Assembly: GCF_037975245.1 (NCBI RefSeq)
Contig: NC_092564.1
Location: 4,730,984 to 4,794,983, forward strand
From: Apostichopus japonicus
Lineage: Eukaryota > Echinodermata > Holothuroidea > Aspidochirotida > Stichopodidae
Direction: 5' to 3'
Length of the DNA stretch: 64,000 nt
Below, piece by piece: positions 1,604 through 54,771 of the stretch (position 1 is the first letter of the stretch; every line of letters starts with the position of its first letter). A program made the translations under genes and the position numbers. A model generated the notes under the pieces. That model was given only the letters and a program-made list of their open reading frames with translations, was not told the origin of the DNA and did not search any database.

Positions 1604-1780
1604 GTGGTCTCTAAGCGATTGTAGGTGTTTTCGCTAGCTTCAAGTTATCTCTCACTGGATAGCATATATGTTGTTCATTCACGGTACCTTCAATATACTA
1701 TATTATATACTATGTATATGTTCTTAGCTAGGAAAGCCTAATTTTCTGGTCACCAAATCCGAACCTCTTCACTCTGGTAG

Positions 1781-1859
1781 ATATATATAGATATATATAT
1801 ATAAATATAAATATATATATATATATTTATATTTATATATATATATACATATATATATA

Positions 1860-1938
<79 letters not shown>
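1781..1938. repeat. (TA)n microsatellite
   Basis: About 158 bp of nearly pure alternating T and A with a few ATAAATAT interruptions, in the 3' flank of gene A. Units B and C have no repeat at this position, so it expanded in A only. Confidence 0.95.
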
Positions 1939-1941
<3 letters not shown>

Positions 1942-2285: not shown

Positions 2286-5200
2286 TCATTTTTCGGAGCA
2301 AATGTCTCTCGCAATCAATTCCTTCATGATTTCGTTGCTCCCAGTATAAATCGGATACACTTTAGTTGCAGCAAACGCTCGGGCTATTGGATACTCCCAC
2401 ATATAACCCCATCCTCCATGCAGCTGTACACACTCACCAGCAACTCGAGTAGCAAGGTCCGTTGTCCTAGCAACAGATAAAAATAACTTTTATAAAGGAG
2501 AGAAATATTTCAGGTCTCACATTAAGAAATAACGTAAATCAAACCCTTGACCGAATTCAAAGAACGGAACATTTCTCCGTGATATAAATAGGATCATTTC
2601 TTCGTGAAATAAGTATAGTATACTTAATGCAGTATCGATTAATTTATACCTCGTTCTTCTCGACGCGCTGAGGACAGTTCGATTCCCTAGATATTATTAG
2701 TTTCAAATTTCTCTTTGTTTTTGTTGATGTCTATCCTTGTTTTTTTTTTTTTTTTTTTTGCATTTGACATGTTTGTATTTGTATTTTGTCTGTATTCGCC
2801 TTTTTTGGAGAGCAAAGTTTTAACCCATATACAGCTATTGGGTCGCTCCTATTTGGCATTCGTGTGTGTTTATGCGTGTGTGTATGTTCGTGTTAGTGTT
2901 ATTGTGTGTTTATGTCTATGTTTTCATTTGCGCTTTTTGATTACTTTGGATTGTCGTGTTTATTTCATTTCATTTCGTTTAGTTTTGATTTATTATGTGT
3001 TGTTTCGTTTATTCTGGTTTTGTCAGTTTGTCATGCTTACCGTTCTTCTTCTTTAGACTTACCAATATTTTAGCATTGAAACAGTTGCATTGTCGAGTCT
3101 ATTCTCGCAGTACATTTGAAGACATTTATCAGCGAATGTTCTGGTGATACAGATCTCTGTCTTCATTTCCGCCATGCGATGCTGAATAGTCTAAAAAATG
3201 GCAAAAGTAAATATGTAAAAGGATCATAGGTCATCTCATCAATTGTGACGTCAGTTCTCTCTATTTTTCGAATACCGTTGTGTTCGCTATTGCTGTGGAA
3301 TACAACCTGTAGGTACATATCTGTTAAACGATTTATTCACTTGTAGATGGGTCTGTACAACTTTTCGACTTAATTTGTCTTGAATGGTTGTTTGAACACT
3401 AGTAAGGCATCCTTCGCCAACTTGGAATAGACAGCAAACGTTTGGTCACCTTTAAATTAAGGCGTTCCATTTACATGTACGAACTCCCTGGTCCCCTCCC
3501 CCACGCCCCACGCCCCACGCCCCACGCCCCCAAGTATGGCCGGATAACACATTACAATAGTATTTTTTAATATTATTATAGAAAATATATAGAAATATGA
3601 TTTATATTTAACTCCATAAGTTTCATTATCTGTTTTTATCTGTTTTACCAACAATGTTGAAACTGGTAGAGCTTCGTATCAACATTTTTGTCATCGCTCA
3701 AGTGTGCATGAACAGCAATATAGTCCTACTTCGGTACTCTGTACACATGTTCTTACGACACACGTTCAACATGGTTATCCCAAACGTGGTGTATTTACCT
3801 GCAGCTTTGACAAAGTCTTTCCAAACGCTTTTCTCTTCGTTACATACTCCCTAGTCATTTCGAACATACATTCAGAGTGGGCTTGGACACCCAGAGATAA
3901 AATAAGACGTTCTCTCGGTAACTGGTTCATGAGGAAGTAAAACCCTTTGTTCAAGTTGTTTGCGCCTCCCAATAACGCCTCCTTTGGCAAGCGTACGTCT
4001 TCAAAAAACAGCTCAGCAGTGTCCTGTAATTATTCAATATTAAAACATAATGGAATTAAGAGCCATTTCATGAAGCTTTCTTTGCACGAAATTACGATTA
4101 AGAGGGAAATAAAACAAAAGTTGTCTTTCCATAAATACATGGGGCCTATAAAGAATGCATGGACTTTAATCTAAGGCATTGCGTAACTTGTCACACACGT
4201 GACACCCCAAACCCCATAAATTCAGTGTTTAAAAATGCAAATTAATGTTAAGATGCAACTTGCAAGGCCTGGGGAGTGCCATTTCCAGCGATCTGGGAAG
4301 CATTTTCTGACAAAATGTTCGTGCACGCTACGCGCCAACCCATGGTGGCGCTCCTCTTAGATAGTGGGCATAATCGTGAAAGGGTCCCTAACCTATTCTG
4401 GCCCCGGGCCTCCCACAAGCTAAATCCTGCCCTGAGTATATGGGCCGTTATCAGTTCCAGACATACCGCTGATCTTTGTCCAATCTTCTTCAAGGGCTTG
4501 CCTTTATGAAATCCCGGTGTATCTGCATCCACAAGAAATAGAGATATTCCATGCGCTTGCCGTTTTGCAGCAAGATCAGTAATAGCGACGACAACCGCCA
4601 TGTCGCATAAATACCCATTCGTAATAAACACCTTAGCAGAAAAGAAAACAATTACCATATGAAATTGTTCAGATGCAAAATTATTTTCGACCGATGAAAG
4701 AGAGACATATTAGCAATTCAAACTCATGGTGGAACTTGCATTCAATCGGAACAGTAAAGTTGACTTGCAGCAAACGGGTATGTTGCTATGGGGCTTTGTT
4801 AGGTACAATATGTATAACGTATTAACAACAGGTATCAGGAGTGTCAAATACTGATCATTCCTAGAAAGGCCAACTTGACAATAGAAAATGTTGAAAGTTT
4901 TATGATACCTTATTGCCGTTTAATATCCAGTCATCTCCATCTCGTTTAGCTGTCGTCTTTATTCCTTGGAGGTCGCTGGAGAAAGTATAAAGTAGAAGAA
5001 AGGCCGTACGGTTATACTGACAAATTTATGTGGGCCGATAATAATTTACAACATATCTTTGTAAACACTGACGTGTTTTAACTTATAGAGAGAGAGATGT
5101 ATGGGAAACCTTTTAATGTCAGATAAAGTACATTGTTTATGCATGCGTCGACCTGTTCTGTTGGGATGGTACGGTACGTTTAGATGGCGCTCTTGCAATT

Positions 5201-8200
5201 CAAACATAGATCAATTTATGTTCAAGCATCATTGTAGTCGATTGCCACAACGAGTTTAAAATATATTCAATCTGAACTGAAGTCGCGTGGAAACCAAATT
5301 GAATTGTTACAACTTTTCGCAATTTCGGTACTTCTAATAATCGCTGTTGTGTTGTGCATATGATATATCACAATATTTGCTATTATTAAGCGCTTTATTA
5401 TCGTTACGCTCTACGATATTTCACCAAGCTAGAAAAAATGTGCGATCGTTTCAAGATCATAGAACTAGGAGTAACGAACTTTGCTGACTTTTTTTTTCAG
5501 AACAGACTGATACGCTAACAGCACATTATGACATGATTTCTTAAAGAAATCACCAAACATTGATCATGATGTCATTGATACATCATACAAGGATCAAATG
5601 GTTTGGCTTAGAAACATATCTTATGTCTCAGTTGTAACTTACCTTGCTGAGTTCTGTTTATAAGTTTGTAAAGCAAAAAGAAAAGTATAAAATAGCATTC
5701 ATGAATATTTAGAGATATGTAGGTTTACAAAAGATGAGATCGGAAATTACTGTCAAACTATATTAAGTTATATACCTCCCAGCCTGAGGTTCAGTCATTG
5801 CGATGGCTCCTATGATCGTCCCAGCAGCCATCCCGGGTACGTATTTTTCTTGCTGTTCTGGCGTTCCATACTCTACTACATATGGCATGATAATGTCATT
5901 ATGTAACTGCCAACCGCTCGTACCAGCGTCGTTAGAGTAACCTCTTCGAGATGACGAGGAGAGATAAAACGAAAACAAAATAACTGTCAACAAAAACGCT
6001 GCCAATATGTTTACAGACAGTATATAAACACTGCAGTAGTTCAAAGTGACTGGTGTTTGTATAGTGTATTCCTTAGACACAGCACATGTATACATAGTTA
6101 ATTTTCTGCAAACTGAGGATATGACGTCACAGTATGGCTGTGATTGGTAATTGAGAGATTGAGAGGGTGACCCAAATCTTCACCTTTTTAATTTGAGCGA
6201 CCCTCCTCCAGTGGTGGAAATTGTGACCAGGGAAGGGGTATACGTGGCGGTGGCATTTCCTCACCCTTTGAGACATTTTTATATGGTTAAAAGGGTCCTT
6301 AAGTACAAACTGAATGTTTATATTTTGCAGAATTGAAGTAAATTCTGTTTAAGAGTATTCCACTTTCCCCCACAAATATTAGCAATTTGTCTTTCAAACT
6401 TTGTGGACCCTCCGAATCCGATTAGGTCACAAAATATGTTTATCTGTAAAAGAAAAAAGAAGGAAAATGAGTTCCACCCCCCCCCCCCCACCCCCAAAGA
6501 AATGATGTAAACTTACTGCTCTTCTGGAAAGATGGCGGCATACTTAAAATCACCACCTACTCCTCCCATTTCAGCTGGTGCTGAAATTCCTAACATTCCC
6601 GCTGCTCCTAACTTAGCCCATAGCTCCCTGTCTACATGTCCTTGCTCTTCGTATCTGTGAGAGAAACGAATACATTTCATGAAGACGTCTTCGTTTTGAA
6701 AAGGCATGGCTGCCAACAGGCATTGCCATTAACATGTCACGCATGACATTTTAAGCTAATCTATAAGCCTAGATAAATCCTATTGACTTTTCTAACAGAA
6801 AATATTTCCCTGGGTAAAAAAGGACTTTTATTAAAATAGCTGGTTTCGACCTGTTGTTTGTTGCGCAATGCTGTGATTAAAATTTAAACACGTCTGCAGT
6901 AAGGTAAACGCTAAGGTTGGGTTCCATTGCCATGTTCAACTTATATGATAGCCTAACTTTGGCAAGAGCAAACGTCGTAAACTCAACAGGTTTAGCTTTG
7001 TCAATTTCACTGGAAAAAGAATATCTATGGAAGGAAATGTATATTTGTTTGAGCGACTGTAAAATAACTTAACAAATTCGAGGCACTATAACGTCCCGTG
7101 AAAAGTTATTACTATAAAAACTAATTATCATAGCTACATATGTTAAACGATAGGTCGTTCCTTCCATCCTTAGGCAACGTTGACGATGAAATAACTTTTG
7201 ATCATTTTTTAACCATGTTAAAGCATTGCAATATAAAGGAAAGTGTCATTTGCCTCACCTCATTTGGTTTGGCAAAATTTCTTCTTGGAAAAATTTCCTT
7301 ATTGACCGGCGAAAGATGTCATGTTCTTCAGTAAATACATCTCTTGTACCAATTTCCATCATATTTTCAACTTGACCAGGTTCTGGTCTCCTAAAACAAT
7401 TAAGTTAAAACAAAGAAGAACAAAAATTCTCAAATGAGATAAATTGGTTGTCAAACCGTAATTCGGTAATTGCATGCATTGTTTATGTTAACCATCAACA
7501 ATAAAAAAAAAATAAAAAAAATAGAACGACTGACGGAAATCGGATTGTGAACTTGATTAAATATAAATCTAGGTCTGCAAGGAACTTCCTAATACCCATA
7601 AAAAATGGGATTAATTCATATTTTCAAGTATAATTGCAATGCATATAATGTAACATTGCTTAGTAGCATGTGGGAGTTTCTCCCAGGATACTTTCGAAAT
7701 GTCAACAAGGACAGAGCCTGGGTACAAAATTCCAGATAACTTGATTCCCTCTCAACGCCAACCCCCTTTACATTGAGACTATCAACATAGTGATCATCAT
7801 GACGGTTTCAAGTGCTGTAGAACTTGAAAAGTATTGTATATGAATATCCTGTATAAAGCTCTCACGACCTAAGACGTTACAAGATATTTACATACAGAAA
7901 ACATCCTCCTCTCCTAACCCTGAAAAGTCCAACTTGTAAACAAAGACACGATCCATTTATTTACCATGGTTTGGGCGATTCTTCATTTTCTGTCGTCGAG
8001 TTATTATTGTGTTGATACCTGTGAGAAACAGGGAGGAAAGACTGCGTAATGGACACATTTAGAGTGAAGTGAAGTCAGTGTCATAACGATTTAACTTGTG
8101 GGCCCGTGGCCAAGGATTAGATGCGGCCCTCTAAGCGAACTGCTAACGACGGCCAAAAAAAGATGGAGCCCCTAAAGCTAGCGAAGCGAGAAATGACATC

Positions 8201-10109
8201 CCTTCCCACATCTTCTTGGTGATACTGAATCTGTCAGTTTTTTTAATGAAATTTGCTCTCTGAACCATTTAAAGTGCGGCTCTGCCTGGCCTCTCAATCA
8301 CTTGTCATTAGAACCGATGGAGCCTGCTACTGTAGGAATCTTGTATATGGCGGGCAAAGGCTCCTGAGTAGCGTTATAAGTACATATATATACGCATGGA
8401 AACAGTGGGCATACAAGTAGCATTTAAAAAAAAATCATTTATTTCTCTCATTTTTTTAAAGAAATCCTTAGGGCTAAGGAGCAATAGGGCAATCGTTTAT
8501 TAATTTGTATCATTGTTATTCGGTAACACGTAAATACTTTGTAAAGTATAAGACAAAGGAAAACTGCAAAGTCTTATCAAAGTCTTATCTTCCAGGTCTC
8601 ACAAGTTCATCATTAATCTTACACGTGATATTTGTTGTATTTGTCCAACCTCTTGAACTTTGATAACGGTATCGCAAAGCTAATATAAACTTACGTCATA
8701 TCTTGCAGCAAAAATAAAATAAAACAACAACAAAATAATTTGTGTGAATCGAAGAGTTCTTTGTGGACACATAATATTGATACATATCTTCACGAACACA
8801 AAGACATAAACAGCACAATTGTCATTAAACTAGCTATGATACAATTGAAAACTAGCTATGCTACAATTGTCATTAAACTAGCTATGATAACGCCATAGAA
8901 TTGATCATTCATTTAAGCTAGTTCTGAATAGTGTTTGGTTTCAGTCTTTGCGAATGTCTGCTCTAAATGTAGCGAGTAGGGTTGCAGGGTGGAAGAAAGA
9001 TATTCTTTCAGTCCTTAAAATACTGAATTGTTTTTAAAAGAAATATTACACATATCGTTTAACACTATATGAAACCAGCTATATATGACTTTACGAGCGT
9101 CTTTGATTGTAGGAAAGTTGTGACGTAGGAAGCAAAACGTGGGATTTTTGTCATTACCTAATGCATCTTTCAAAATTCACGATAAATGCTTTTAAAAAAA
9201 GGAGAGAAAACATCGCTACGTAATTTGACCTATTAGCCAAAGTAAAACAAATAAAATTGAGTTCTGTATGAAAATTATTAATCTAACGTACAAAATTCGA
9301 ATTACGTATCCATATGATTTTAACGCAAATTCAATCACTGGACATTAAAGAGCTTGTATCCATTATGACTTTAACAAATATGACATGTTAACTTTCTGAT
9401 CGATTGAAAGATTGAAAAGTTTCTTCTCTGTAACTTAATGGACAGACTTCCTTACACAATTATAACAAGTAATATAAAACAGTACAAATTGTTACAGCGT
9501 GTACACGTATGTATGTATTGTATGTAATTTAGATCCTCCTGCAAGCAGGAACTCGCGAAGAAGCCATCATTGCCTTATCAAGCCGCAAGCTGACCGAAGT
9601 CAGTCTCTTAGATTCATATTTAACGTCCATGATTATCAATTGTCAATTGTCAACAACTCTGTAACTGGACGACATACATTAATCTTGAAGTGACTCGAAC
9701 TCGGGACCTTATGATTGGAAGGCACCGGCGTTAGCGGGGCACCGACGTAGGCACCGACACCGCAAGGCACCGACGTACAGCGACACACAACGAGAAATAA
9801 CGACGTAGACACGACACACGAAGACCAACAACGAAGTTGGCAACGACAAACGACAGCAGAGGTTAAACAACACACGAAGGCACACAGAGACACATGACGA
9901 CACACACAGACACACGACGACTCACACACGACACACGACAACAATACATGCGTCAACGTACAACGACGTAAAGTGACGTACAACGAACCATTTAGTCCGC
10001 CAATCACCAGGATTCTGAGTGGTACTAACCTTGAGAAGTATTGGAGACAAACAGCCGGGTTCCTGATGCATCTTGCTGGAACTTTTGAGAATAATGCCAA
10101 CGAAACCAT
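2286..10109 (-). CDS. ACADL: Long-chain acyl-CoA dehydrogenase-like, copy A (10 exons)
   Basis: Mitochondrial FAD enzyme oxidising long-chain acyl-CoA to trans-2-enoyl-CoA and passing electrons to ETF. Exons, in coding order: 10109-10030, 8018-7965, 7390-7259, 6654-6517, 5943-5776, 4975-4909, 4631-4467, 4023-3799, 3190-3063, 2466-2286 (stop). All introns are GT-AG and phases join to 445 codons; human ACADL has 430. Exon 1 encodes an Arg-rich presequence (MVSLALFSKVPAR...), fitting mitochondrial import. Signature 1 AMTEPQAGSDLQG is at about 183-195; QLHGGWGYMWEY begins near 400. The family's catalytic base is Glu306 in PRERL; the position matching MCAD Glu376 is Thr427, as expected for an ACADL/IVD-type active site. 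The frame stays open upstream to MHNIS..., giving a possible 12-residue longer start. No stops or frameshifts seen, so probably functional. Mid-chain or branched substrates are not excluded. Confidence 0.94.
4112..4432. other. Copy-A-specific intron segment
   Basis: In intron 7 of gene A this stretch replaces about 400 bp that B and C share (B 13430-13785, C 26010-26365). It is more GC-rich than its surroundings, with runs such as GGCCCCGGGCCTCCC on one strand or the other. Inference: either an insertion into A or an indel exchange. No terminal repeats or target duplication could be identified. Confidence 0.55.
9497..9735 (-). mobile_element. tRNA-derived SINE in intron 1 of gene A
   Basis: On the minus strand it reads: tRNA-like 3' half with B-box GGTTCGAGTC-type sequence (GAGTTCGAGTCACT), a unique body, then AGGATCTAAA and a tail of CATA repeats. 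The A-box end is cut off at about 9735. Copies at the same place in B (20760-20991) and C (31751-31979) show it was inserted before the tandem duplication. A full-length member is at 19727-19969. Confidence 0.8.
9737..9990. repeat. CGAC/ACACGACG-rich simple repeat, copy A
   Basis: Purine-pyrimidine-biased stretch built from imperfect ACACGACG and CACCGACG words, lying in intron 1 between exon 1 and the SINE. Matching stretches are at 20992-21225 (B) and 31980-32215 (C). It creates long Cys/Val/Ser-rich open frames on the minus strand that are compositional, not genes. Confidence 0.75.
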
Positions 10110-10920: not shown

Positions 10921-10922
10921 AT

Positions 10923-10953
<31 letters not shown>

Positions 10954-11170
10954 CAGGAACAGCCATTTGTCGAGTTTCATTGTTTTTAATCACACAACGT
11001 TCATTTTTCTGTACAGATGTCTCTCGCGATCAGTTCTTTCATAACTTCGCTGGTTCCTCCATATATCGTGTTAACCTTTGCTGACGTACATGCCCTTGAG
11101 ATAGGATGCTCCAACATGTATCCCCAACCCCCGTGCAATTGTAAACATTCACTGGCCACTAGAAACTACA
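10921..11170 (-). repeat. Junction filler between units A and B
   Basis: Between the end of unit A and the start of unit B lie a short (TA)n tract (10921-10953) and about 220 bp homologous to the 3' end of the plus-strand gene at 41 kb. That segment comprises part of its last exon, its stop codon and about 45 bp after it, here in minus orientation. The same composite, with a longer (TA)n, occurs at the B/C junction. Confidence 0.8.
11001..11160 (-). pseudogene. Last-exon fragment of a type-2 ACADL-like paralog
   Basis: Reads on the minus strand as VASECLQLHGGWGYMLEHP... to a stop at 11001, matching the last exon of the plus-strand gene (40858-41038) far better than genes A-C. The first seven codons of that exon and its splice acceptor are missing; homology stops abruptly at 11160. 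The remaining frame is open. No other exon of this gene is nearby, so it is a relic. It marks the A/B duplication junction. Confidence 0.85.
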
Positions 11171-11945
11171 GTGGTCTCTAAGCGCTTGTAGGTGTTTTCG
11201 CTAGCTTCAAGCTATCTCTCACTTCATAGCTTATATGTTGTTCATTCACGGCACATTCAATATACTATACCATATACCATGAATATACTTAACTAGGAAA
11301 GCCTAATTTTGTGGTCACTAAATCCGAACCCAGTCTCTTTGGTAGATTGGGATTTTCGTACGACGTTCCTCAAAGACAGAGTATACTAAAATTATTACTA
11401 AAATTATAATAATCCTATTTTCACACCACATACTCTTTCAATCAAGTAGTTTACATTAAGTTCAAATAACAAAAGAAACGTGTCCCCCCCCCCCCCCAGC
11501 TGGCCAAATGTCTCACGGTTTTCGACAAATTTTACTCTCTGGCCCAATCAAATCTTAGGTTGTGCTAACTTACATAACTCAATGACGTATTTTGATATAG
11601 AATTTCAGCCACACTGCAGGACGGCAGGACACAGTAAATAAGCAGTAATACTAAAGGGTTGTGCATTCTATGGATAGGCTGCCAGTTCATTACACAGAGC
11701 GGGCAAAGCAAAATTAGTACAAAAAATAAATAATAAGCCTAAACATATTAACGGCTCATTTTGTTAACACATTTGAGCTTAAGCATAGCTGGTCATATTT
11801 AGCAGTATTACTGTTTATATATAAGTGTAGTATTAGTAAGAAGTATTGCTTGATATGTAACGTTTCTATCAATACTGAGATTGTAACACACAAGTTGTTT
11901 CTCATTTACAGTTTTGTTAATCCAAAGCGTTATAAATGGTATTTC

Positions 11946-14900
11946 TCATTTTTCGGAGCAAATGTCTCTCGCTATCAATTCCTTCATGATTTCGTTGCTC
12001 CCAGCATAAATCGGATACACTTTAGTTGCAGCAAACGCTCGGGCTATTGGATACTCCCACATATAACCCCATCCTCCATGCAGCTGTACACACTCACCAG
12101 CAACTCGAGTAGCAAGGTCCGTTGTCCTATGAGACAGATTTAAAAAAAAAAGTTAATAAAAGAGAGAAATATTTCAGGTCTCACATTAAGAAATGACGTA
12201 AATCAAACCCTTAGTGACCGTTTTATAGTGTGTTTATGTCTGTGTTTTCATTTGTGCTTTTATTACTTTGGATTGTCTTCAATTCATTTTTTTTATCTTT
12301 CCGTATTGTATTTTTTTCTTTATTTTTTCTTTAAGTAAAAAGAAATCTTTAGACTTACCAGTATTTTAGCATTGAAGCACTTGCATTGTCGAGTCTATTC
12401 TCGCAGTACATTTGAAGACATTTATCAGTGAATGTTCTGGTGATACAGATCTCTGTCTTCATTTCGGCCATGCGATGCTGAATAGTCTGAAAAAATGGCA
12501 AAAAGTATGGCAAATAGTTACAGGGTCATAGGTCATCTCATCAATTGTGACGTCAATTCTTTATTTTTTTTCGAATGCCGTTGTGTTCGATATTGCTGTG
12601 GTATACAACCTGTAGGTACTACGTACACACCTGTTGTATTCACTTGTAGATGAGTCTACCTGTTCAGCTGGATTTGTCTTGAATGACTTTGTGAACACTA
12701 GTAATGCATCCTTCGCCAACTTGAACTTGGATTACACAGGAAACACCTTTAAATTAAGGCGTTAAATTTACATGTACGAACTCCTTGTTGCCCCTTCCCC
12801 ATCGTCCCCCTACTCAAATAACACATTACAATATTGAAACCTTTTTATTACTATCACATAAATCTGATTTATATATAACTCCATGAGTTTCATTAAACTC
12901 GTTATCAATTCTAATGCATAGCCAATACACATTAAAACTAGTATAGTAACCAATGATTTGGAGGCAATTTATCTATGTTTTCCAACAATAGCGAAACTGG
13001 TAAACGTTCATAATACAATCTTTGTCATCGCTTAAGTGTGAATGAACAGCAATCAGAATCTTATGTGCTTACGACACGTTCAAAATTGTTATTCCAAAAC
13101 GTAGTGTACTTACCTGCAGCTTTGACAAAGTCTTTCCAAACGCTTTTCTCTTCGTAACATAATCCCTAGTCATTTCGAACATACATTCAGAGTGGGCTTG
13201 GACACTCAGAGATAAAATAAGACGTTCTCTCGGTAACTGGTCCATGAGAAAGTAGAACCCTTTGTTCAAGTTGTTTGCGCCTCCCAATAACGCCTCCTTT
13301 GGCAAGCGTACGTCTTCGAAGAACAGCTCAGCAGTGTCCTGTAATTATTCAATATTAAAACATCATGGAATTAAGAGCTTTTATGAAGCTTTCTTCGCAC
13401 GAAATTACAATAAAGAGGGAAATAAAAATCATCCACCCTACAGAATAAAATATATAAATAAATATAAAAGCAAGAAAAACACCAACAAGTTGTTACTGGA
13501 AGAAAAGATGTCTTCTACCACAATTAGTCTCAAGAACATAAAAATAGTCCAAATGTTTTTCATATTAATGATAGATATCCCGAGAAGTGCAAAACAACAC
13601 TTTACCAAAGCATCGTCGTAACTGATTAACAGGTTGACATGAAAATGACATTTTAAATTTACTACAAGCCGCCCATCCCCCACCCCCATCACCCCATTTG
13701 TTTTTAACAAAATGGAACTCTCTCTCAGTCTATATATCTATATATCAGTGGCGAATGGGCTTATTACGTGGTTAAGTACTTCAGTATATGGGATGTTAGC
13801 AGTTACAGACATACCGCTGATCGTTGTCCAATCTTCTTCAAGGGCTTGCCTTTATGGAATCCCGGTGTATCTGCATCCACAAGAAATAGAGATATTCCAT
13901 GCGCTTTCCGTTTTGCAGCAAGATCAGTAATAGCGACGACAACCACCATGTCGCATAAATAGCCATTCGAAATAAACACCTTAAAAGAAAAGAAACAATA
14001 ACCAAATGAAAAGAATTTGTTTAGAGGCAAAATTATTTTCGACCGATGAAAGAGAGACATATTAACAATTAAATCTCATGGTGGAACTTGCATTCAATCG
14101 GAACAGTAAAGTTGACTTGCATCAAACAGGTATCTATATGAGGCTTTGTTCGATGCGATATGCGTTACGTATTACCAACAGGTATCGGGAGTGTCAAATG
14201 CTGATCATTCCTAGAAAGGCCAACTTGACAATAGAAAATGCTGAAAGTTTTATGATACCTTATTGCCATTTAATATCCAGTCATCTCCATCTCGTTTAGC
14301 TGTCGTCTTTATTCCTTGGAGGTCGCTGGAGAATGTATGAAATAGAAGAAAGGCTGTACGATTATACTGACAAATTTATGTGGGCCGATAATAATTTACA
14401 ACATATCATCATAAACACTGACGTGTATTACTTATATAGAGAGAGAGAGATGTACGAGAAACCTTTTTTAAAGTCAGAAAAAGTACATTGTCTATTCATG
14501 CGTCAACCTGTTCTGTTGGGATGGTACGGTATCTCTAAGGTGTATACGTTTAGAGGGCGCTCTTGCAATTCAAACATAGATCAATTTATGTTCAAGCATC
14601 ATTGTAGTCGATTGACACAACGAGTCTAAAGTATATTGAATCTGAACTAAAGTCGCGTGGAAACCAAATTGAATTGTTACAACTTTTCGCAATTTCGGTA
14701 CTTCTAATAATCGCTGTTGTGTTGTGCAAATGATATAACACAATATTTGCCATTGTAAAGCGCTTTATTAACGGTACGCTTATTCTACGATATTTCACCA
14801 AGCTAGAAAAAATGTGCGATCGTTTCAAGATCATAAAACTAGGAGTAACGAACTTTGCTGACTTTTTTCAGAACAGACTGTTACGCTAACTTGACGTTAT

Positions 14901-22072: not shown

Positions 22073-22076
<4 letters not shown>

Positions 22077-22160
<84 letters not shown>

Positions 22161-22301
22161 TACTAGATGAGACTAGTGGAACACTAGTAGTTGTAACTCG
22201 GAGTTTCACGCTTTGTAGCGATCTTCAGACAACTCAAGAACATATATTCCGCTCTGTCCAATGGACATAGAGCACTCTGCGCCAAGATAGACGCCAACCT
22301 A

Positions 22302-22386
<85 letters not shown>
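22077..22386. repeat. Two (TA)n tracts flanking a 147-bp segment
   Basis: (TA)n at 22077-22157 and 22305-22386. The DNA between them (22158-22304) has no recognised similarity. This replaces the end of unit B. Confidence 0.9.
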
Positions 22387-22388
<2 letters not shown>

Positions 22389-22599
22389 TTGTGCGGATAA
22401 CATAACCTGGAATAACATCTTTGATTGTGGAAACAAGGAGCAATCCGGGAGAAACAGTTATCGGCTATATGGCGAATTTTGAATGAACTATGTTACAATG
22501 ACACATATAATCGAATCCTTCAATGTTGCTCAAAGATATGTGTACGTGGCTACAACTCATTCCTTCCCAAATGTAATGCAAATGATTATTTATTGACAG

Positions 22600-22758
22600 A
22601 GGTTATGCAAATGCGTGTGGAACCGCATGGGGTATTCACAGTGATATTGTAATGCCGTATATAGCAGAGTATGGGACTCCCGAACAGATAGAAAAATTCA
22701 TGCCTGCTGCTGGGACAAATATCGGAGCAATCGCAATAACAGAACCAGGCGCTGGAAG
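22600..22758 (+). pseudogene. Orphan exon 5 of a third ACADL-like type
   Basis: Acceptor TTGACAG precedes and donor GTAAAG follows. The open 159-bp exon reads GYANACGTAWGIHSDIVMPY..., ending IAITEPGAG, the FAD-binding signature region. It corresponds to exon 5 of genes A-C and of the plus-strand gene and has the same phases, but its sequence (GIHSDIVMPY, TEPGAG) is nearer to vertebrate ACADL than either local type. No other exons of this type are visible in the window. It lies on the plus strand, opposite to the tandem genes. Likely a relic of a lost or displaced gene; use as an alternative exon is unlikely. Confidence 0.85.
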
Positions 22759-23031
22759 GTAAAGTACGCAGAATATTATACATTACATGCTATGTTTATG
22801 TGTATATATGTATATAGACATTGATAGCCTATATATGTATATAGCCTATATATGTCTATAGCCTATATATGTATGTAGCCTTCTTCCTAGTTTGAAAAAT
22901 GAAGGAAAATGTGAAGCCACCTGACACATATAGTTTACGTTTTACTAATTGTTTTGCACAATTTGCAACCCAAAGTTTAGTACCGGTCTGTTCACACCTT
23001 CTACTGATGAATGATGACACTAACGCCATGC

Positions 23032-23033
<2 letters not shown>

Positions 23034-23072
<39 letters not shown>

Positions 23073-23078
23073 TATATC

Positions 23079-23114
<36 letters not shown>

Positions 23115-23125
23115 GATATAGATAT
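23034..23125. repeat. (TA)n microsatellite with GATATA interruptions
   Basis: About 90 bp, matching the (TA)n that follows the stop codon of the plus-strand gene at 41.1 kb. It belongs to the 3' fragment at 23195-23354 rather than to the tandem unit. Confidence 0.9.
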
Positions 23126-23194
23126 ATCTGCCGTGCTACTGTGCTTCAGGAACGGCCATTTTGTCGAGTATCATTGGTTTGAATCACACAACGT

Positions 23195-23354
23195 TCATTT
23201 TTCTGCATAGATGTCTCTTGCGATCAGTTCTTTCATAACTTCGCTGGTTCCTCCATATATCGTGTTTACCTTTGCTGACGTTGATGCCATCACGATGAGA
23301 TACTCCAACATGTATCCTCAACCCCCGTGCAATTGTAAACATTCACTGGCCACT
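23195..23354 (-). pseudogene. Second last-exon fragment of a type-2 ACADL-like paralog
   Basis: Minus-strand counterpart of 11001-11160, cut at the same base (after GGCCACT at 23354) and ending at a TGA at 23195. The Trp codon of HGGWGYM is a TGA stop here, so this fragment is clearly dead. Homology continues about 60 bp past the stop into the same (TA)n-bearing 3' flank as the plus-strand gene. It marks the B/C duplication junction. Confidence 0.88.
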
Positions 23355-24168
23355 AGAAACTACAGTGGTCTCTTAGCGCTTGTAGGTGTTTTCGCTAGCT
23401 TCAGGCTATCTCTCACTTCATAGCTTATATGTTGTTCATTCACGGCACATTCAATATACTATACCATATACCATGAATATTCTTAACTAGGAAAGCCTAA
23501 TTTTGTGGTCACTAAATCCGAACCTCCTCTCTTTGGTAGATTGTGATTTTCGTACGACGTTCCTCAAAGACAGAGAATACTAAAATTATTACTAAAATTA
23601 TAATAATCCCATTTTCACACCGCATACTCTTTCAATCAAAAAGTTTACATTAAGTTCAAATAACAAAAAAAACGTGTCCCCCCCCCCCCCCCCCCCAGCT
23701 GGCCCAATGTCTCACGGTTTTCGACAAATGTTACTCTGTGGCCCAATCAAATCTTAGGTTGTGCTAACTTACATAACTCAATGACGTATTTTGATATAGG
23801 ATTTCAGCCACACAGGACGGCAGGACAAAGTAAATAAGCAGTAACACTAAAGGGTTGTGCATTCTATGGATAGGCTGCCAGTTCATTACACAGAGCGGGC
23901 AAAGCAAACTTATTACAAAAAATAAATAATAAGCCCTATTCAAATAAGAAAACAACATTTCATAACATATTAATGGCTCATTTTGTTAACACATTTGAGC
24001 TTAAGCATAGCTGGTCATAGTTAGCAGTATTACTGTTTATATATAAGTGTAGTAATAGTAAGGAGTATTGCTGGATATGTAACGTTTCTATCAATACTGA
24101 GATTGTAACACACAGGTTGTTTCTCATTTACAGTTTTGTTAATCCAAAGCGTTATAAATGTTATTTTC

Positions 24169-27100
24169 TCATTTTTCTGAGCAAATGTCTCTCGCTATCA
24201 ATTCCTTCATGATTTCGTTGCTCCCAGCATAAATCGGATACACTTTAGTTGCAGCAAACGCTCGGGCTAATGGATACTCCCACATATAACCCCATCCTCC
24301 ATGCAGCTGTACACACTCACCAGCAACTCGAGTAGCAAGGTCCGTTGTCCTATGAAACAGATACAAAACAAACGTTTATAAAAGAGAGGAATATTTTAGG
24401 TCTCATATTAAGAAATGACGTAAATCAAACCCTTAGTGACCGAATTCAAAGAACGAAACATTCCTCCGTGATATAAATACGAACATTTCTCCGTGATATA
24501 GATAGGATCATTTTCCGTGTTATAGATAGGATTATTTCTCCGTGTTAAATAAGTATAGTACACTTAATGTAATATCAATTAATTTATACTTCGTTCTTCT
24601 TGACGTTGAGGACATTTCGAACCCCTAGATATTATTAGTTTCAAATTTCTCTTTGTTTTTGTTTTTGTTGATGTCTATCCTTGGGTATCGGTTGTTCCTA
24701 TAGTTGGCATTCCTGTGTGTTTATGCGTGTGCGTGTTCGTGTTAGTGTTACAGTGTGTTTATGTCTGTGTTTTCATTTGCGCTTTTATTACTTTGGATTG
24801 TCTTGTTCTATTTCATTTTGTTTTCGTTCCGTATTGTATTGTTTTGTTTAATTTGCTTTAATGTCATTTTGTCTTGTTTTTCTTTCTTTAATTAAGTAAA
24901 AATAAATCTTTAGACTTACCAGTATTTTAGCATTGAAGCACTTGCATTGTCGAGTCTATTCTCGCAGTACATTTGAAGACATTTATCAGTGAATGTTCTG
25001 GTGATACAGATCTCTGTCTTCATTTCGGCCATGCGATGCTGAATAGTCTGAAAAAATGGCAAAAGTAAATAGTTACAGGGTCATAGGTCATCAATTGTGA
25101 CGTCAGTTCTATCTATTTTTCGAATGCCGTTGTGTTCGATATTGCGGTTGTATACAATCCCACACTGTAGGTACTACGTACACACCTGTTGTACGATTTA
25201 TTTACTTGTAGATGAGATTGTCACTGTTCAGCTGGAGTTGTCTTGAATGACTTTGTGAACACTAGTAGTAATACATCCTTCGCCGACTTGAACTTGGATA
25301 ACACAGGAAACGTTTGGCCACCTTTAAATTAAGGCGTTCAATTTCCATACGAACTCCTTGGTGCGCTCTCCCCCACCGTCCCCTACCCGGATAACACATT
25401 ACAATATTAAAAACTTTTTATTACTATAACATAAATCAGATTAGGCTATATATAACTCCATAAATTTGATTAAACTCGTTATCATTTCTAATGCATTGAG
25501 CCAATACACATTAAAACTAGTATAGTGACCAATGATTTGGAGCAATTTATCTGTTTCCAACAATAGCGAAACTGGTAAATGTTCATATTAACAGTTTTTG
25601 TCATCGCTTAAGTGTGAATGAACAGCAATCAGAATCTTATGTGCTTACGACACACGTTCAACATTGTTATCCCAAAACGTGGTGTATTTACCTGCAGCTT
25701 TGACAAAGTCTTTCCAAACGCTTTTCTCTTCGTTACATACTCCTTAGTCATTTCGAACATACATTCAGAGTGGGCGTGGACACCCAGAGATAAAATAAGA
25801 CGTTCTCTCGGTAACTGGTTCATGAGGAAGTAAAACCCTTTGTTCAAGTTGTCTGCGCCTCCCAATAACGCCTCCTTTGGCAAGCGTACGTCTTCGAAGA
25901 ACAGCTCAGCAGTGTCCTGTAATTATTCAATATTAAAACATCATGGAATTAAGAGCCATTTCATGAAGCTTTCTTCACACGAAATTACAATAAAGAGGGA
26001 AATAAAAAGCATCCACCCTACAGAATAAAATATATAAATAAATATAAAAGCAAGAAAAACACCCACAAGTTGTTACTGGAAGAAAAGATGTCTTCTACCA
26101 CAATTAGTCTCAATAACTTATAATTAGTCCATAGGTTTTTCATATTAATGAAAGATATCCCGACAAGTGCAAAACAACACTTTTACCAAAGCATCGTCGT
26201 AACTGATTAACAGGTTGACATGAAAATGACATTTTAAATTTACTACAAGCCGCCCATCCCCCACCCCCATCACCCCCATTTTTTAACAAAATGGAACTCT
26301 CTCTAAGTCTATATATCTATATATCAGTGGCGAATGGGCTTATTACGTGGTTTAGTACTTCAGCATATGGGATGTTAGCAGTTCCAGACATACCGCTGAT
26401 CTTTGTCCAATCTTCTTCAAGGGCTTGCCTTTATGGAATCCCGGTGTATCTGCATCCACAAGAAATAGAGATATTCCATGCGCTTGCCGTTTTGCAGCAA
26501 GATCAGTAATAGCGACGACAACCGCCATGTCGCATAAATACCCATTCGTAATAAACACCTTAAAAGAAAAGAAACAATACCATTTGAAATTGTTCAGAGG
26601 CAAAATTATTTTCGACCGATGAAAGAGAGACATTTAATAATTCAAATTCATGGTGGAACTTGCATTCAACCGGAACAGTAAAGTTGACTTGCAGCAAACA
26701 GGTATGTTGCTATGAGGCTTTGTTCGGTGCGATATGTATTACATATTAACAACATGTATCAGGAGTATCAAATACTGATCATTCCTAGAAAAGCCAAAGT
26801 TAAAAGACTATAGAAAATGCTGAAAGTTTTATGATACCTTATTTCCGTTTAAGATCCAGTCATCTCCATCTCGTTTAGCTGTCGTCTTTATTCCTTGGAG
26901 GTCGCTGGAGAAAGTATGAAATAGAAGAAAGGCCGTACGGTTATACTGACAAATTTATGTGTGCCGATATAACGTTACAACATATCTTTATAAACACTGA
27001 CGTGTATTACTTATAGAGAGAAAGAGATATATGGGAAACCTTTTTAAAGTCAGATAAAGTACATTGTCTATGCATGCGGCAACCTGTTCTGTTAGGATGA

Positions 27101-30100
27101 TATATATACGGTATCTATAAGGTGTATACGTTTAGAGGGCGCTCTTGCAATTCAAACATAGATCGATTTATGTTCGAGCATCATTGTAGTCGATTGCTAC
27201 AACGAGTCTATAATGTATATTCAATCTGAACTAAAGTCGCGTGGAAACCAAATTGAATTGTTACAACTTTTCGCAATTTCGTTACTTCTTATAATCGCTG
27301 TTGTGTTGTGCAAATGATATAACACAATATTTGCCATTGTAAAGCGCTTTATTAACGTTACGCTTATTCTACGATATTTCACCAAGGTAGAAAAAATGTG
27401 CGATCGTTTCAAGATCATAGAACTAGGAGTAACGAACTTTGCTGATTTTTTTCAGAACAGACTGTTACGCTAACTTGACGTTATGACATGATTCCTTAAA
27501 GAAATCACCAAACAGTGATCATGATGTCATTGAAACATCGTGCAAGGATCAAATGATTTGGCTTAAAACATACCTTATATCTCAGTTGTAACTTACCCTG
27601 GTGAGTTCTGTTTATAAATTTGTAAAGTAAAAGGAAAAGTATAAAATAAAATTCAGGAATATTCAGAAATATGTAGATTTACAAAGGCTGGACCGGAAAT
27701 TACTGTCAAACTATATTAAGTTATATACCTCCCAGCCTGAGGTTCAGTCATTGCGATGGCTCCTATGATCGTCCCAGCAGCCATCCCGGGTACGTATTTT
27801 TCTTGCTGTTCTGGCGTTCCATACTCTACTACATATGGCATGATAATGTCATTATGTAACTGCCAACCGCTCGTACCAGCGTCGTTAGAGTAACCTCTTC
27901 GAGGTGACGAGGAGAGATAAAAAGAAAACAAAATAATTGTCAACAAACACGCTGTCAATATGTATACAGGCAGTATGTAAACACTGCAGTAGTTCAAAGT
28001 GTATGGTGTTTGTATAGTGTATTCTATAGACCCAGCACATGTATACATTATTAATTTTATGCAAACTGAGGATATGACGTCACAGTATAGTTGTGATTGG
28101 TAATTTTGATAAAATGCATGACATAGGTGGAAATTATTATAAATTCACGGGTTTTGTATGCAGAAATCTTCTTGAATTATTGAGCTAGTTTCCTTACTGC
28201 AGTCTCTTCTTTCATGATCTCTATGATTGTTTTTAATTACTGCTTAATTAATACATATATAATATATAATTACAACCGTTTCTCATCATTCGCTTTAACA
28301 TGGTTAAATTGGTAAGCTTAAGCTGTAGGTGTATTGCTACTAAACACTATTTGAAATATGACCTGGGATATCATGCTAAATATGTAGATTACAAATGCCA
28401 AAAGGACCTGGTATTCAAACCTCTTTTTTGGCGGAGAGGGGGGGGGTGGGAGAGGGTGACCCAAATCTACACCTTCTTAATTTGAGAGACCCTCCTCCAG
28501 TGGTGGAAATTTCAAGGAGAAGGGTTATACGTGGAGGTGGTTTTCCCTCCCCCTTTGAGACATTTTTATATGGTTAAGGGTCCTTAGGTACAAACTGAAT
28601 GTTGATATTTTGCAACATTGAAGTAAATTCTGTTTAAGTGTTTTCCACTTTTCCCCGACAAATATTAGCGATTTGTCTCTCAAACTTTGTGGACCCTCCG
28701 AATCCGACAAGGTCACAAAATATGTTTATCTGTACAAAAAAAGGGGGGAAAATGAGCCCCCACCCACCCCAAAGAAATGATGTAAACTTACTGCTCTTCT
28801 GGAAAGATGGCGGCATACTTAAAATCACCACCTACTCCTCCCATTTCAGCTGGTGCTGAAATTCCTAACATTCCGGCTGCTCCTAACTTAGCCCATAGCT
28901 CCCTGTCTACATGTCCTTGCTCTTCGTATCTTTGAGAGAAACGAATAAAATTCACAAAGACGTCATGTTGTGAAAGGGCATGGCTGCCAACAGACATGTC
29001 ACGCATGACATTTAAGCTAATCTATAACACTAGATAAATCCTATTGACTTTTCTAACAGAAAATATTTCACTGAGTAAAATGGGACTTTTATTAAAGTAG
29101 CTGGTTTCGACCTTTTGTTTGTTGCGCAATGGTGTGATTAAAATTTAAACACGTCTGCAGTAAGATAAACGCTAAGGTTGGGTTCCATTGCCATTGTCAA
29201 CTTATATGATAGCTTGTTTAACTAACTTTGGCAAGAGCAAAAGGTCGTAAACTAAACTGGTAGCTTTGTCAATTACACCGGGAAAAGAATATTGATGGAA
29301 GGCGATGCATATTTGTTTGAGCGACTGTAAAATAGCTAACCAAATGCGAGGCACTATAACATCCCGTGAAATGTTATTACTATATAAACAAATTATCATA
29401 GCTACATATGTTAAACGTTAGGTCGTTACTTCCATGCTAAAGCAACGTTGACGATGAAATTATCCTCACCTCATTTGGTTTGGCAAAATTTCTTCTTGGA
29501 AAAATTTCCGTATTGACCGGCGAAAGATGTCATGTTCTTCAGTAAATACATCTCTTGTACCAATTTCCATCATATTTTCAACTTGACCAGGTTCTGGTCT
29601 CCTAAAACAATTAAGTTAAAACAAAGATGGAAAACTGATTCTCAAATGAGATAAATTGGTTGTCAAACCGTAATTCGGTAATTGCATTCATTGTTTATGA
29701 TCACCATCAACAGTAAAACAAAAATAGAACGAATGACCGAAATCGGATTGTGAACTTGATTCAATATAAAGCTATATGTCTGCAAGGAATTTCCTAAAAC
29801 CTATGAACAAATTGGGATACATTCATATTTTCAAGTATAGTTGCAATGCATATAATGTAACATTGCTTAGTAGTATGTGGGAGTGTCTCTCAGGATCCTT
29901 TCGAAATGTCACCCAGGACAGAGCCTGGGTACAAAATGCCAAATAACTTGATTCCCTCTCAACGCCAACTCCCTTTACATTGAGACTATCAACATGTGAT
30001 CATGACGGTGTCAAGAGCTGTAGAACTTGAAAAGTACTGTTTATGAATATCCTGTATAATGCTCTCACGACCTAAGACGTTATAAGATATTTACATTATA

Positions 30101-32334
30101 CATAAAGGGAACGTTCTCCTCTCCTAACCCTGAAAAGTCCAACTTATAAACAAAGACATGATCCATCTCTTTACCATGTTTTGGGTGATTCTTCATTTTC
30201 TGTGGTCGAGTTATCATTGTGTTGATACCTGTGAGAAACAGGAAGGAATGATTGCGTAATGGACACATTTAGAGTGAAGTGTAGTCAGCGTCATAACGAT
30301 TTAACTTGTGGGCCCGGGGCCAAGAATTAGATGCGGCTCTCTAATGAACTGCTAACGGTGGCCAAGAAAAAGATGGAGCCCCTAAAGCTATAGCGAAGCG
30401 AGAAATGACATCCCGTCCCACATCTTCTTGGTGATACTGAATCTGTCATTTATGAACGAAATTTGCTCTCTGCACATTTTTTTAGTGCGGCTCTGCCTGG
30501 CCTCTCAATCCCTTGTCGTTAAACCGATGGAACCTGCTACTGCAGGAATCGTGTATATGGCGGGCAAAGGCTCCCGAGTAGCGTTATAAGTACATATATA
30601 CGCATGGAAACAGTGGGCATACAAGTCGCATTATAAAATTCATTTTTTTCTCTCATTTTTTAAATCCCTAGGTCAAAGGAGCAATAGGGCAATAGTTTAT
30701 TATATTTTATCATTGTTATTCGGTAACACGTAAATACTTCGTAAATTAAGACAAAGAAAAACTGCAAATTCTAATCTTCCAGGTCTCACAAGTTCATTAT
30801 TAATCTTACACGTGATATTTGTTGTATTTGTCCAACCTCTTGAACTTTGATAATGGTATCGCAAAGCTAATATAAACTTATGTAATATCTTGCAGCAAAT
30901 GAGGGGAGGGTTAGCCGAAAACACATCTAGTGTAATGAAAAATAGAACACAATACCGTATTTCACACTGCCTGCCGAAACCACAATATTGCTCCCGATTC
31001 TTAATAAGGTACTTTGGAGGAATCTTACATGTTTGCCGTTAACGCAAAACACATGCATGGGAAATCATATGATGTTTTGAGTCTTTTCTCCCATTTATAA
31101 CGTTTCTATTGATTTTCCCTCTACAATTGGGATAAAGGCATTTTTCCTCCAAATAATTTTTGTGAATCGAGCAGTCCTCTGTGGATACATACTAATGGTA
31201 CATATCTTCACAAACACAAAAGAATAGACAACACAATTGTCAATAAAATATAGATTAGCTTTGATGATGCCGGAATATTGATCATTCATTTAAACTTTTT
31301 CTGAATAGTTTTTGGGATTTAGTCTTTACGTATTTCTGCTCTAAAAGTGCCGATTAAGGTTGTAGGGTAGAAGAAAGATATTCTTTCAGTCTATAAAATA
31401 CTGAATTGTTTCTAATAGAAATATTCCACATATCGTTTTAAACTGTATGCAACCAACAATATATGACTTTACGAGCACGTCTTTGATTGTAGGAAAGTTG
31501 TGACGTAGGAAACAAAACAAGATGATTATCGTCATTACCTATTGCATCTTTCAAAATTCACGATATATGCTTTTAAAAAAAGGAGAAAAAACATCGCTAG
31601 CGTAATTTGATCCTATTAGCCAAAAACTGACATGTTAACTTTCTGATCGACTGAAAGATTGAAAGTTTCTTCTCTGTATCTTAACGGGCAGACTTCCTTA
31701 CACAATAATAACAAGTTATATAAACAGTACAAATTGTTACAGCGTGTACACGTATGTATGTATTGTATATATTTTAGATCCTCCTGCAAGCAGGAACTCG
31801 CGAAGAAGCCTCATTGGATTATCAAAGCCGCAAGCTGACCGAAGTCAGTCTCTTAGATTCATATTTAACGTCCATGATTATGAATTGTCAACTGTCAACA
31901 ACTCTGTAACTGGACGACATACATTCATCTTGGAGTGACTCGAACTCGGGACCTTATGACTGAAAGGCACAGGCGTTAGTGGGGCACCGACGTAGGCACC
32001 GACACCGCAAGGCACCGACGTACAGCGACATACAACGAGAAATAACGACGTAGACACGACACACGAAGACCAACAACGAAGTTGACAACGACATACGACA
32101 GCAGAGGTTAAACAACACACGAAGGCTCACACAGACACACGACGACTCACACACGCCACACGACGACAATATGGGTGTCAACGTACAACGACGTACAGTG
32201 ACGTACAACGAACCATTCAGTCCGCCAATCACCGGGATTCTGAGTGGTACTAACCTTGAGAAGGATTGGATACAAACAGTCGGGTTCCTGATGCATCTTG
32301 CTGGAACTTTTGAGAATAATGCCAACGAAACCAT
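24169..32334 (-). CDS. ACADL: Long-chain acyl-CoA dehydrogenase-like, copy C (10 exons)
   Basis: Same enzyme as A and B. Exons in coding order: 32334-32255, 30228-30175, 29601-29470, 28929-28792, 27896-27729, 26904-26838, 26558-26394, 25916-25692, 25047-24920, 24349-24169 (stop). Lengths equal those of A and B; splice sites are intact; 445 residues. Own differences include GGADNLNKG, GVHAHSE and TKEYV in exon 8, and YPLARAF for YPIARAF in exon 10. Catalytic Glu306 and both signature regions are kept, and Ala is at position 427 as in B. As in A, the frame is open upstream of MVSLAL to a further Met (MHNISIN...). Its upstream DR1-like site is damaged, so its expression may differ from A and B. 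Confidence 0.93.
31751..31979 (-). mobile_element. tRNA-derived SINE in intron 1 of gene C
   Basis: Third orthologous copy of the truncated minus-strand SINE (see 9497-9735). It confirms that the insertion is older than the tandem duplication. Confidence 0.8.
31980..32215. repeat. CGAC/ACACGACG-rich simple repeat, copy C
   Basis: Counterpart of 9737-9990 and 20992-21225 in intron 1 of gene C. Confidence 0.7.
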
Positions 32335-32465
32335 TTTGTTCAGCTGCATATTAATAGATATATTGTGCATTGAATGGTCAAGACTACACTGTTGACCAAT
32401 TGGTAAGACGGACTCGCCTTATTAAGCTTCGCTTTGACTAGATTCAAGAGAAACGCTGACCTGAC
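32335..32465 (-). promoter_or_regulatory. Putative proximal promoter of gene C (CCAAT kept, DR1 eroded)
   Basis: CCAATTGG is kept at 32396-32403. The place of the DR1 (32428-32440) reads TAGTCAAAGCGAA on the minus strand, having lost the second half-site. The AGGTCA half-site near 32460 is retained. Confidence 0.38.
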
Positions 32466-33144
32466 CAGTGGTCAATCTAATATGGACAAAGTAAATAGTG
32501 ACAACCGTTGTGGTCAGAAATCCGGTCAAATTTCTGTATTTATTATTTACAAATTGATTTGATAAAAACGGATTAGATATCCTATAGGCCTATAGCAGTT
32601 TGAAGTTTCATTTTGCCGGATATCAAAACAAGCAACAGAGCAATTCAAAGTCAGATTCTTAACATCGGGGGGCTAAACATGGGTAACTGTTTGTAACTTT
32701 TTTTGGAAATTTATACAAATTTGAAACGAAATGTTACCAATGAAAACGAGGCGGATCATGATATGGCAAAATTAGTCAAGTGTGTATCTGTATTCAAGTG
32801 TACATGGACATGGATATTTGAGTGCACATAATATGAACACACACATATTCAAGTGTACGTGTACCAGTTCATGGTGTACACAAGGGGATAGGGGGAGGTG
32901 GTCATGCCCCCTCCCCGTCCATCGTCAGTCGGGCGAAGATGGTTCAGTCTGGGAAACTGTAACATTCAGTAGAGGAAGAATCAGACCACTCACTCCTTAG
33001 GGTGTCCACCCCGCGGTATAACCTCCCATAGAATTTAAGGGTATTTAGTAGCTCAACCTTGCGCTTAGACCTAAGTATAGGCCTAATATGTGGTCTAGAT
33101 ATGTCTCTGGAAGAACCAATTGACGTCTAAGCGTCTGATTTTGA

Positions 33145-53348: not shown

Positions 53349-53356
53349 TTTGTTAC

Positions 53357-54703: not shown

Positions 54704-54771
<68 letters not shown>

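Follow-up and report, generated by a model that had tools for sequence, protein, structure and literature searches.

The window analyzed here is a stretch of 64,000 nucleotides from Apostichopus japonicus (C4:4730984-4794983 of the assembly, C4 denoting the contig on which it lies; coordinates without a contig refer to the window). It contains three ACADL-like genes arranged head-to-tail on the minus strand, designated U1, U2 and U3, and a fourth, divergent gene of the same kind, G4, on the plus strand. To judge from their sequences, U1-U3 appear to be genes for a mitochondrial LCAD-type acyl-CoA dehydrogenase, with predicted location and activity, and to represent the youngest part of an ACADL family of at least 16 genes in this genome. 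That family, with its fast-changing substrate pocket, is the larger fact behind the array.

Gene structures

U1 (2286..10109, minus strand) comprises the exons 10109-10030, 7390-7259, 6654-6517, 5943-5776, 4975-4909, 4631-4467, 4023-3799, 3190-3063 and 2466-2286. The middle copy U2 (11946..21345, minus strand) runs from exon 21345-21266 to exon 12126-11946, and the right-hand copy U3 (24169..32334, minus strand), which has retained the 5' flank running on towards G4, from exon 32334-32255 to exon 24349-24169. The exon lengths are common to the three genes (80, 132, 138, 168, 67, 165, 225, 128 and 181 bp), all internal boundaries are AG/GT, no stops or frameshifts interrupt them, and each gene consists of nine coding exons with 427 codons plus stop. 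The unit-to-unit matches extend over several kb, mostly at 88-93%, which is far beyond chance. An in-frame Met further upstream is found in U1 and U3 and is not retained in U2; the U genes may have an extra non-coding first exon. Exon 1 presumably encodes an N-terminal mitochondrial leader, as assigned by eye.

G4 is intact (33851..41038, plus strand) and lies head to head with U3, the two start codons being about 1.5 kb apart. Its nine exons are 33851-33924, 35229-35366, 36155-36292, 36680-36847, 37659-37725, 38542-38706, 39174-39398, 40165-40292 and 40858-41038, the first of which was picked by eye; the G4 protein shares 66% identity with that of U3.

A preliminary description of this DNA had proposed three head-to-tail genes with identical exon lengths, alignable introns, intact splice sites and a catalytic Glu in each copy, all of which is confirmed. 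The extent it gave (1604-33144) is close to the block found here, from 1596 at the left edge of U1 to 33144 at the right edge of U3; its ten exons and 445 residues per copy are replaced by the nine coding exons and 427 codons above. It makes no mention of G4, of the partial exon copies in the junctions or of the twelve further ACADL-type genes located elsewhere in the assembly.

Two repeat features are located in intron 1 of the U genes. U2 carries an insertion of about 1.1 kb with 86-bp tandem repeats (17577-18705), related to a repeat at 53356-54131 and to C4:4697974-4698362, left of the family member g02. An element of about 225 bp, probably a short mobile element, is found at the same place in all three genes (9507-9733, 19746-19970, 20763-20989 and 31752-31978, with an additional inverted copy in U2), and copies are also found in the region of g02 and g03 (C4:4724771 and 4699341).

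Junctions and origin of the array

The left edge of the amplified unit lies at 1596..1782, which matches 11163-11347 and 23357-23541, and the right edge at 33060..33144, where the flank as copied in U1 gives way to TA repeats. The junction between U1 and U2 (J1; 10922..11162, minus strand) is composed of (TA)n, an inverted piece of G4 and a short filler; the piece, 10954-11160, matches 41087-40879 (last exon and 3' untranslated region of G4) at 96.2%. The junction between U2 and U3 (J2; 23034..23356, minus strand) is composed of an AT repeat and the same inverted G4 piece, here 23060-23354, matching 41172-40879 at 90.9%. In both junctions the piece (about 200-290 bp) starts inside the last exon of G4 at the same base, and the same short filler links it to the unit; the fragment is open over 52 codons in J1 and has a stop in its reading frame in J2. 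Since breakpoint and filler are the same in J1 and J2 and there is no G4 piece left of U1's unit edge, both junctions descend from one joint, and an identical joint at every internal junction is what unequal crossing over is expected to leave.

J2 contains about 0.9 kb that is not in J1. In this extra part, between the 5' flank of U2 and J2, lies an orphan copy of exon 4 of the family member g03 with flanking introns (22463..23031, plus strand; 569 bp, 91.3% to C4:4716941-4717501; the exon itself at about 22599-22759), and g03 is located about 36 kb to the left. Beside J2, the stretches 22161-22343 and 22377-22460 resemble sequence of the g03 region (85% and 83%), and are perhaps more copied pieces or dispersed repeats. 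Long (AT)n arrays are found at 1781-1938, 22077-22157, 22305-22386, 23034-23127, 54710-54890 and 57053-57242, several of them adjoining unit edges or junctions.

The middle copy was examined as a possible mosaic of its neighbors with a three-way alignment of U1-U3, of which 7210 of 8473 columns were kept and the poorly aligned ones dropped, and 741 noncoding two-state sites were compared with shuffles in blocks of 1, 5, 10 or 20 sites. On the 5' side of about 8540, the odd one out is most often U3 (106 of 207 noncoding sites), and on the 3' side most often U1 (242 of 534). The likelihood gain of the mosaic is 30.9, which was matched by none of 500 shuffles at any block size; with coding sites included, the log-likelihood ratio is 29.3 versus 12.8 for the best of 300 shuffles. 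The best-supported switch point is located in U1 intron 1 (8503..8540, minus strand), corresponding to about 19339 in U2 and about 30740 in U3. Divergence follows the same pattern: in the 5' part U1-U2 differ by 0.059 versus 0.086 and 0.094 for the other pairs, and in the 3' part U2-U3 differ by 0.075 versus 0.104 and 0.092. U2 is a hybrid in the order expected of the middle copy: its left (3') part resembles U3 and its right (5') part U1, the product that unequal crossing over between the first two units should yield.

The array probably arose in two steps, and for the first of these a tandem duplication by repair with template switching is the most economical reading. One U gene beside G4 would have been tandemly duplicated by a repair event in which the template was switched at AT repeats and short homologies, which would have left a joint with an inverted copied piece of G4, and perhaps also a piece of g03. 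Templated insertions from nearby sequence are indeed present, the G4 piece in both joints and the g03 piece in one; at the switches themselves, AT repeats lie on one side and the short filler on the other, and the 4-9% of later change in the pieces blurs any exact homologies. The misaligned copies would later have exchanged unequally to yield the hybrid U2 with a second copy of the same joint. The g03 piece would either have been lost from J1 between the AT repeats or have been gained later by J2. Template switching and the order of events are in this sense inferred, from a duplication joint that is aged yet still readable.

Divergence and selection

Noncoding divergence, over 5926 aligned columns, is 0.090 (U1-U2), 0.090 (U1-U3) and 0.081 (U2-U3), and synonymous divergence is 0.072, 0.041 and 0.053 for the same pairs. 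The silent sites of the U1 and U3 exons differ less than their introns (11/276 versus 535/5926, p 0.002); the contrast is not significant for U1-U2 and U2-U3.

The proteins of U1-U3 are 96-98% identical, and the pairwise ratio of nonsynonymous to synonymous substitution rates (dN/dS) is 0.24-0.27. The private changes, as nonsynonymous to synonymous, are 7:8 in U1 and 10:11 in U2, with fewer nonsynonymous changes than under neutrality in each (p 0.007 and p 0.002); in U3 they are 4:3, which shows no departure from neutrality (p 0.18) and is not informative. Out-of-frame indels are absent from the 1284 coding bases of U1-U3, whereas about 9-11 per pair would be expected at the intron rate. From the deficits of private nonsynonymous changes together with the absence of frame-shifting indels it follows that at least U1 and U2 have been selected to stay working proteins, i.e. 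at least these two of the three copies are under purifying selection.

The ACADL family in the genome

The assembly (671,581,487 bases, 35 contigs) was searched, 21 stretches were taken from it, and exons 2-9 of the genes outside the window were modelled by homology. Since only open exons flanked by splice edges could enter the exon search, openness is partly built in and the test lies in whether each exon is found; the family size given is a minimum. LCAD-type genes number at least 16, 14 of them on C4. Beyond the four in the window, eleven genes are complete for exons 2-9, with matching phase and open frames: on C4, g02 (4.70 Mb), g08 (5.34 Mb), g09 (7.89 Mb), g10 and g11 (8.87-8.88 Mb) and g12, g13, g14 and g16 (25.81-25.86 Mb), and elsewhere g17 (contig C1) and g18 (contig C16). 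For g03 (C4, 4.71 Mb) exons 2-8 were found; its last exon was not seen, since part of that stretch reads N. Acceptors are AG in 95 of 95 and donors GT in 84 of 84 cases in these 12 modelled genes, and their exon lengths are within one codon of those of U3.

In an unrestricted search, 19 of 197 matches contained a stop, attributable by reading to intron overrun in all but two; both of these belong to exon 8 of an incomplete gene, g1 (near C4 4.696 Mb). The exon 8-9 pair of g1 (C4:4695752-4696843) and a lone ACADL exon 9 (C4:25845394-25845558) are likely remnants of further family members. About 13 other places in the assembly match PF00441; of three checked by tblastn, one (contig C23) gave no match and two matched at 29-44% only.

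A tree was built from the 16 paralogues, human LCAD and ten of 80 bacterial relatives, the latter being the best 80 of 582 loci from a scan with a broader alignment. All 16 paralogues lie on one side of a branch with support 100/99, which, with human and bacteria on the other side, places the expansion later than the split from the human lineage. Within the family, U1-U3 group with G4 and g08 (100/100), the four 25.8 Mb genes with one another (100/100) and g17 with g18 (100/98); some deeper forks are weak. Silent sites are saturated in 110 of 120 paralogue pairs; the youngest pairs by this measure are those among the U copies (0.044-0.069), followed by g14-g16 (0.515). No title or abstract start among the literature matches listed reports an ACADL expansion, and neither 'acyl-CoA' nor 'fatty acid' occurs in the main text of the A. 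japonicus genome paper of 2017 (PMC5638244).

U3 shares 56% identity with human LCAD over 393 aligned residues, and the 16 paralogues share 55-62%, compared with 24-34% given for LCAD versus other eukaryotic acyl-CoA dehydrogenases (ACADs) in passages of PMC11153573. U3 scores 509 bits to LCAD versus 370 to a bacterial acyl-CoA dehydrogenase (2pg0) and 237 to isovaleryl-CoA dehydrogenase, and G4 scores 506 bits to human LCAD; PF02771, PF02770 and PF00441 are all far above cut-off in U3, the single protein scanned. The catalytic Glu on helix G of the human enzyme, Glu291 according to the same passages (PMC11153573), has its equivalent in U1-U3, in G4 and in all 16 paralogues, as has the ETF-contact Glu260. 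The MCAD catalytic position, Gly412 in human LCAD, lacks Glu and is Thr in U1, Ala in U2 and U3, and Gly in G4; among the 15 paralogues that reach this site it is Gly in eight, Ala in five and Thr in two. Human Pro132, which starts helix E and widens the human cavity, is absent in 16 of 16 paralogues (Thr 8, Ser 4, Ala 3, Phe 1) and occurs in only 21 of the 80 bacteria; it is taken to characterize the human enzyme and not the clade. U1-U3, G4 and g08 have one extra residue in the Pro132 loop, and g17 and g18 have one at another column.

Variation of the substrate cavity

The cavity was represented by 26 positions, i.e. the cavity and P-loop list found in passages of PMC11153573 plus Gly412, and entropy was calculated over 375 of 393 sites (26 cavity, 349 other) after poorly aligned ones were dropped. 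Among the 16 paralogues mean entropy is 1.67 in the cavity versus 0.79 at other sites, about a twofold difference that is not seen among the 80 bacterial relatives, where the same sites give 1.36 versus 1.16. The excess persists when a single U copy is kept, when the helix-E loop is omitted, and both with the 25.8 Mb clade removed and in an analysis confined to it, and the changes per site on the tree are 5.1 in the cavity versus 2.5 elsewhere. The cavity list holds eight of the 40 fastest sites, and the remaining protein has fast sites too.

Nine changes are private to U2 in the mature protein, and four of them fall at listed cavity positions (p 0.0015, or 0.0033 when only evolvable sites are considered). 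The U2 residue Phe130 stands at a site that is Leu in 79 of 80 bacteria, and Phe does not recur there among the paralogues; U2 Leu164 stands at a site that is Ile in 75 of 80 bacteria, and U1 Thr409, at the Gly412 site, at one that is Gly in 49 and Ala in 31. Leu and Thr at the latter two sites recur among the paralogues. These three residues may tune substrate choice or lower activity. An AlphaFold prediction of the four window proteins alone reached a pLDDT of 32.5 and was not used.

Other features of the window

Sulfotransferase-like open frame pieces are located at 60402-63060 (plus strand), of which the PF00685 match covers 62641-63060 only, the other pieces having been assigned by eye. 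Rfam and tRNA scans of the window gave no matches.

Interpretation

Taken together, U1-U3 are probably functional LCAD-type genes that form the youngest branch of a lineage-specific family, with a history of duplication and exchange, and whose paralogues divide acyl-CoA substrates among them. Each protein would bind flavin adenine dinucleotide (FAD), use the helix-G Glu to abstract the acyl-CoA alpha proton and hand the electrons to ETF; the paralogues would keep this catalytic apparatus while differing in the residues that line the acyl cavity. The members of the family would most likely split the acyl-CoA range by chain length, branching or bulk, U2 being a recent example. This division of substrates is an inference from the pattern of residues.

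For the preliminary description this means that the triplication is real and intact, and that its reading as young and self-standing is incomplete. The observation that no copy shows decay is strengthened by the low dN/dS, the absence of out-of-frame indels and the constraint on U1 and U2. With 8-9% noncoding divergence, 'very recent' is not apt, and in view of this and of the two-step history 'young' holds in a relative sense only. Its suggestion of a sub-division of function gains support from the cavity-biased changes in U2 and the family-wide cavity variation, and its premise that the pathway needs just one gene is at odds with the retention of at least 16 in this genome.

Several points weigh against this interpretation. 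J1 has no g03 piece, hence this piece may postdate the first event. The private changes of U2 are more numerous than a simple hybrid predicts, the copy that stands apart at about 8.6-8.0 kb of U1 is U2, and the protein tree joins U1 with U3 (96/80); further conversion tracts between the copies, blurring the two-step history, are likely. The exon models outside the window come from the search restricted to open exons, for which the unrestricted check showed in-exon stops in g1 alone. Cavity lists shifted by 3-7 residues were also raised (1.04-1.23, p < 0.01 in four of six), which indicates that variable stretches cluster and that the permutation test, with p 0.0002, overstates the significance; even so, the true list stands clearly above the shifted ones, and the effect size rather than the p value carries the claim. 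The cavity bias of U2 is modest, 3/8 and p 0.03, after realignment and matching for variability (80 bacteria), the test being weaker because one site fell in an insertion. Finally, U2 Phe130, U2 Leu164 and U1 Thr409 are residues unseen at their sites in the 80 bacterial relatives, and it is possible that the copies bearing them have reduced activity; at two of the three sites, though, the residue concerned (Leu or Thr) recurs among the paralogues. Conversion of U2 by G4 was also considered: at 21 U2-private coding sites, G4 agrees with U2 in five, with the other copies in ten and with neither in six, i.e. without excess.

If the three U copies make the same enzyme, they may have been kept because more LCAD protein is useful, e.g. 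in a gut or season in which much fat is used. Tandem amplification is a common route to higher output, and the near-identity of the U proteins under purifying selection would agree with such a dosage effect, which is also compatible with the explanation preferred here for the older paralogues; we nevertheless regard it as rather unlikely for the array, since the private changes of U2 in the cavity go beyond expectation, the Gly412 position differs between U1 (Thr) and U2 and U3 (Ala), and the pocket diversifies across the whole family. Retention with substrate-pocket diversification thus appears better supported than dosage alone. A neutral alternative, in which the copies are too young for loss and gene conversion keeps them alike, could draw on the clear sequence exchange between copies and on the silent sites of U1 and U3 being more alike than their introns, but it is difficult to reconcile with an intact reading frame at 8-9% noncoding divergence and with nonsynonymous private changes below the neutral level in U1 and U2, and we give it little credence.

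An assembly artefact, i.e. uncollapsed haplotypes or a chimera at the AT repeats that adjoin both junctions, is very improbable: the window is free of N, the non-repetitive side of the joint is present twice with the same filler, the units differ by 8-9% and carry copy-specific insertions, and a published A. japonicus assembly was built with 64x PacBio circular consensus sequencing (CCS) reads, according to passages of PMC10344927. Least probable of all is a nascent alternative last exon, by which U2 exon 8 would be spliced into the open G4-derived fragment of J1 to give a G4-type C-terminus. One of 49 AG sites there is in frame from exon 8; however, the G4 piece starts inside an exon and hence has no native acceptor, the only usable AG sits inside the fragment and would drop about ten residues, and in J2, with its stop, none of 50 AG sites works. 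With one weak candidate among 49 + 50 sites, this exon was rejected as unlikely.

Pocket diversification in an expanded gene family is well known for detoxification enzymes, but genomes usually keep few copies of a core enzyme of mitochondrial beta-oxidation. Two long-chain ACADs have been reported as separate proteins in A. japonicus, both rising under heat stress (PMC4783884), and at 7 days following evisceration one A. japonicus ACADL is down to 0.11 (PMC11050598); the passages concerned do not give the paralogue identity of these proteins. The true substrates of LCAD are debated, and bulky and branched ones are argued for in passages of PMC11153573. A bolder and more doubtful proposal is that the 16 or more diversified paralogues differ in the bulky or unusual acyl-CoAs on which they act (with branched or very long chains, or with sterol and triterpenoid side chains linked to the animal's own saponin and sterol chemistry), and that the window shows this process under way, as a template-switching duplication, the formation of a hybrid and a changing pocket in the middle copy. 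The link to sterol and saponin side chains is our own suggestion from general knowledge. If substrates are divided among at least 16 paralogues, the family would offer a ready set of natural LCAD pocket variants, which would make the LCAD substrate question directly testable.

Comparison with known systems

Templated insertions of 6 bp to 13 kb are listed, in passages of PMC5120786, for fork stalling and template switching and microhomology-mediated break-induced replication (FoSTeS/MMBIR). The joints described here resemble these in their filler, the inverted piece of nearby sequence and, in one joint, a second piece from about 36 kb away; they differ in that the process is read from a joint of some age, that the copied pieces both come from paralogues of the duplicated gene, and that exact microhomologies are hidden by later change. 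With Drosophila Sdic, as portrayed in passages of PMC7475035, the array shares tandem units, exchange between copies and coding divergence of one copy despite this exchange; Sdic, however, is chimeric, impacts sperm competition and has demonstrated copy number variation in populations, whereas the array in the window is seen in one genome only and belongs to an enzyme family with old members. Human LCAD is approached by U3 in sequence identity, the helix-G Glu, the lack of Glu at the MCAD base position and the ETF-contact Glu260, and is set apart by its Pro132, found in none of the 16 paralogues. The human enzyme is encoded by a single ACADL gene, in contrast to the at least 16 genes of A. japonicus.

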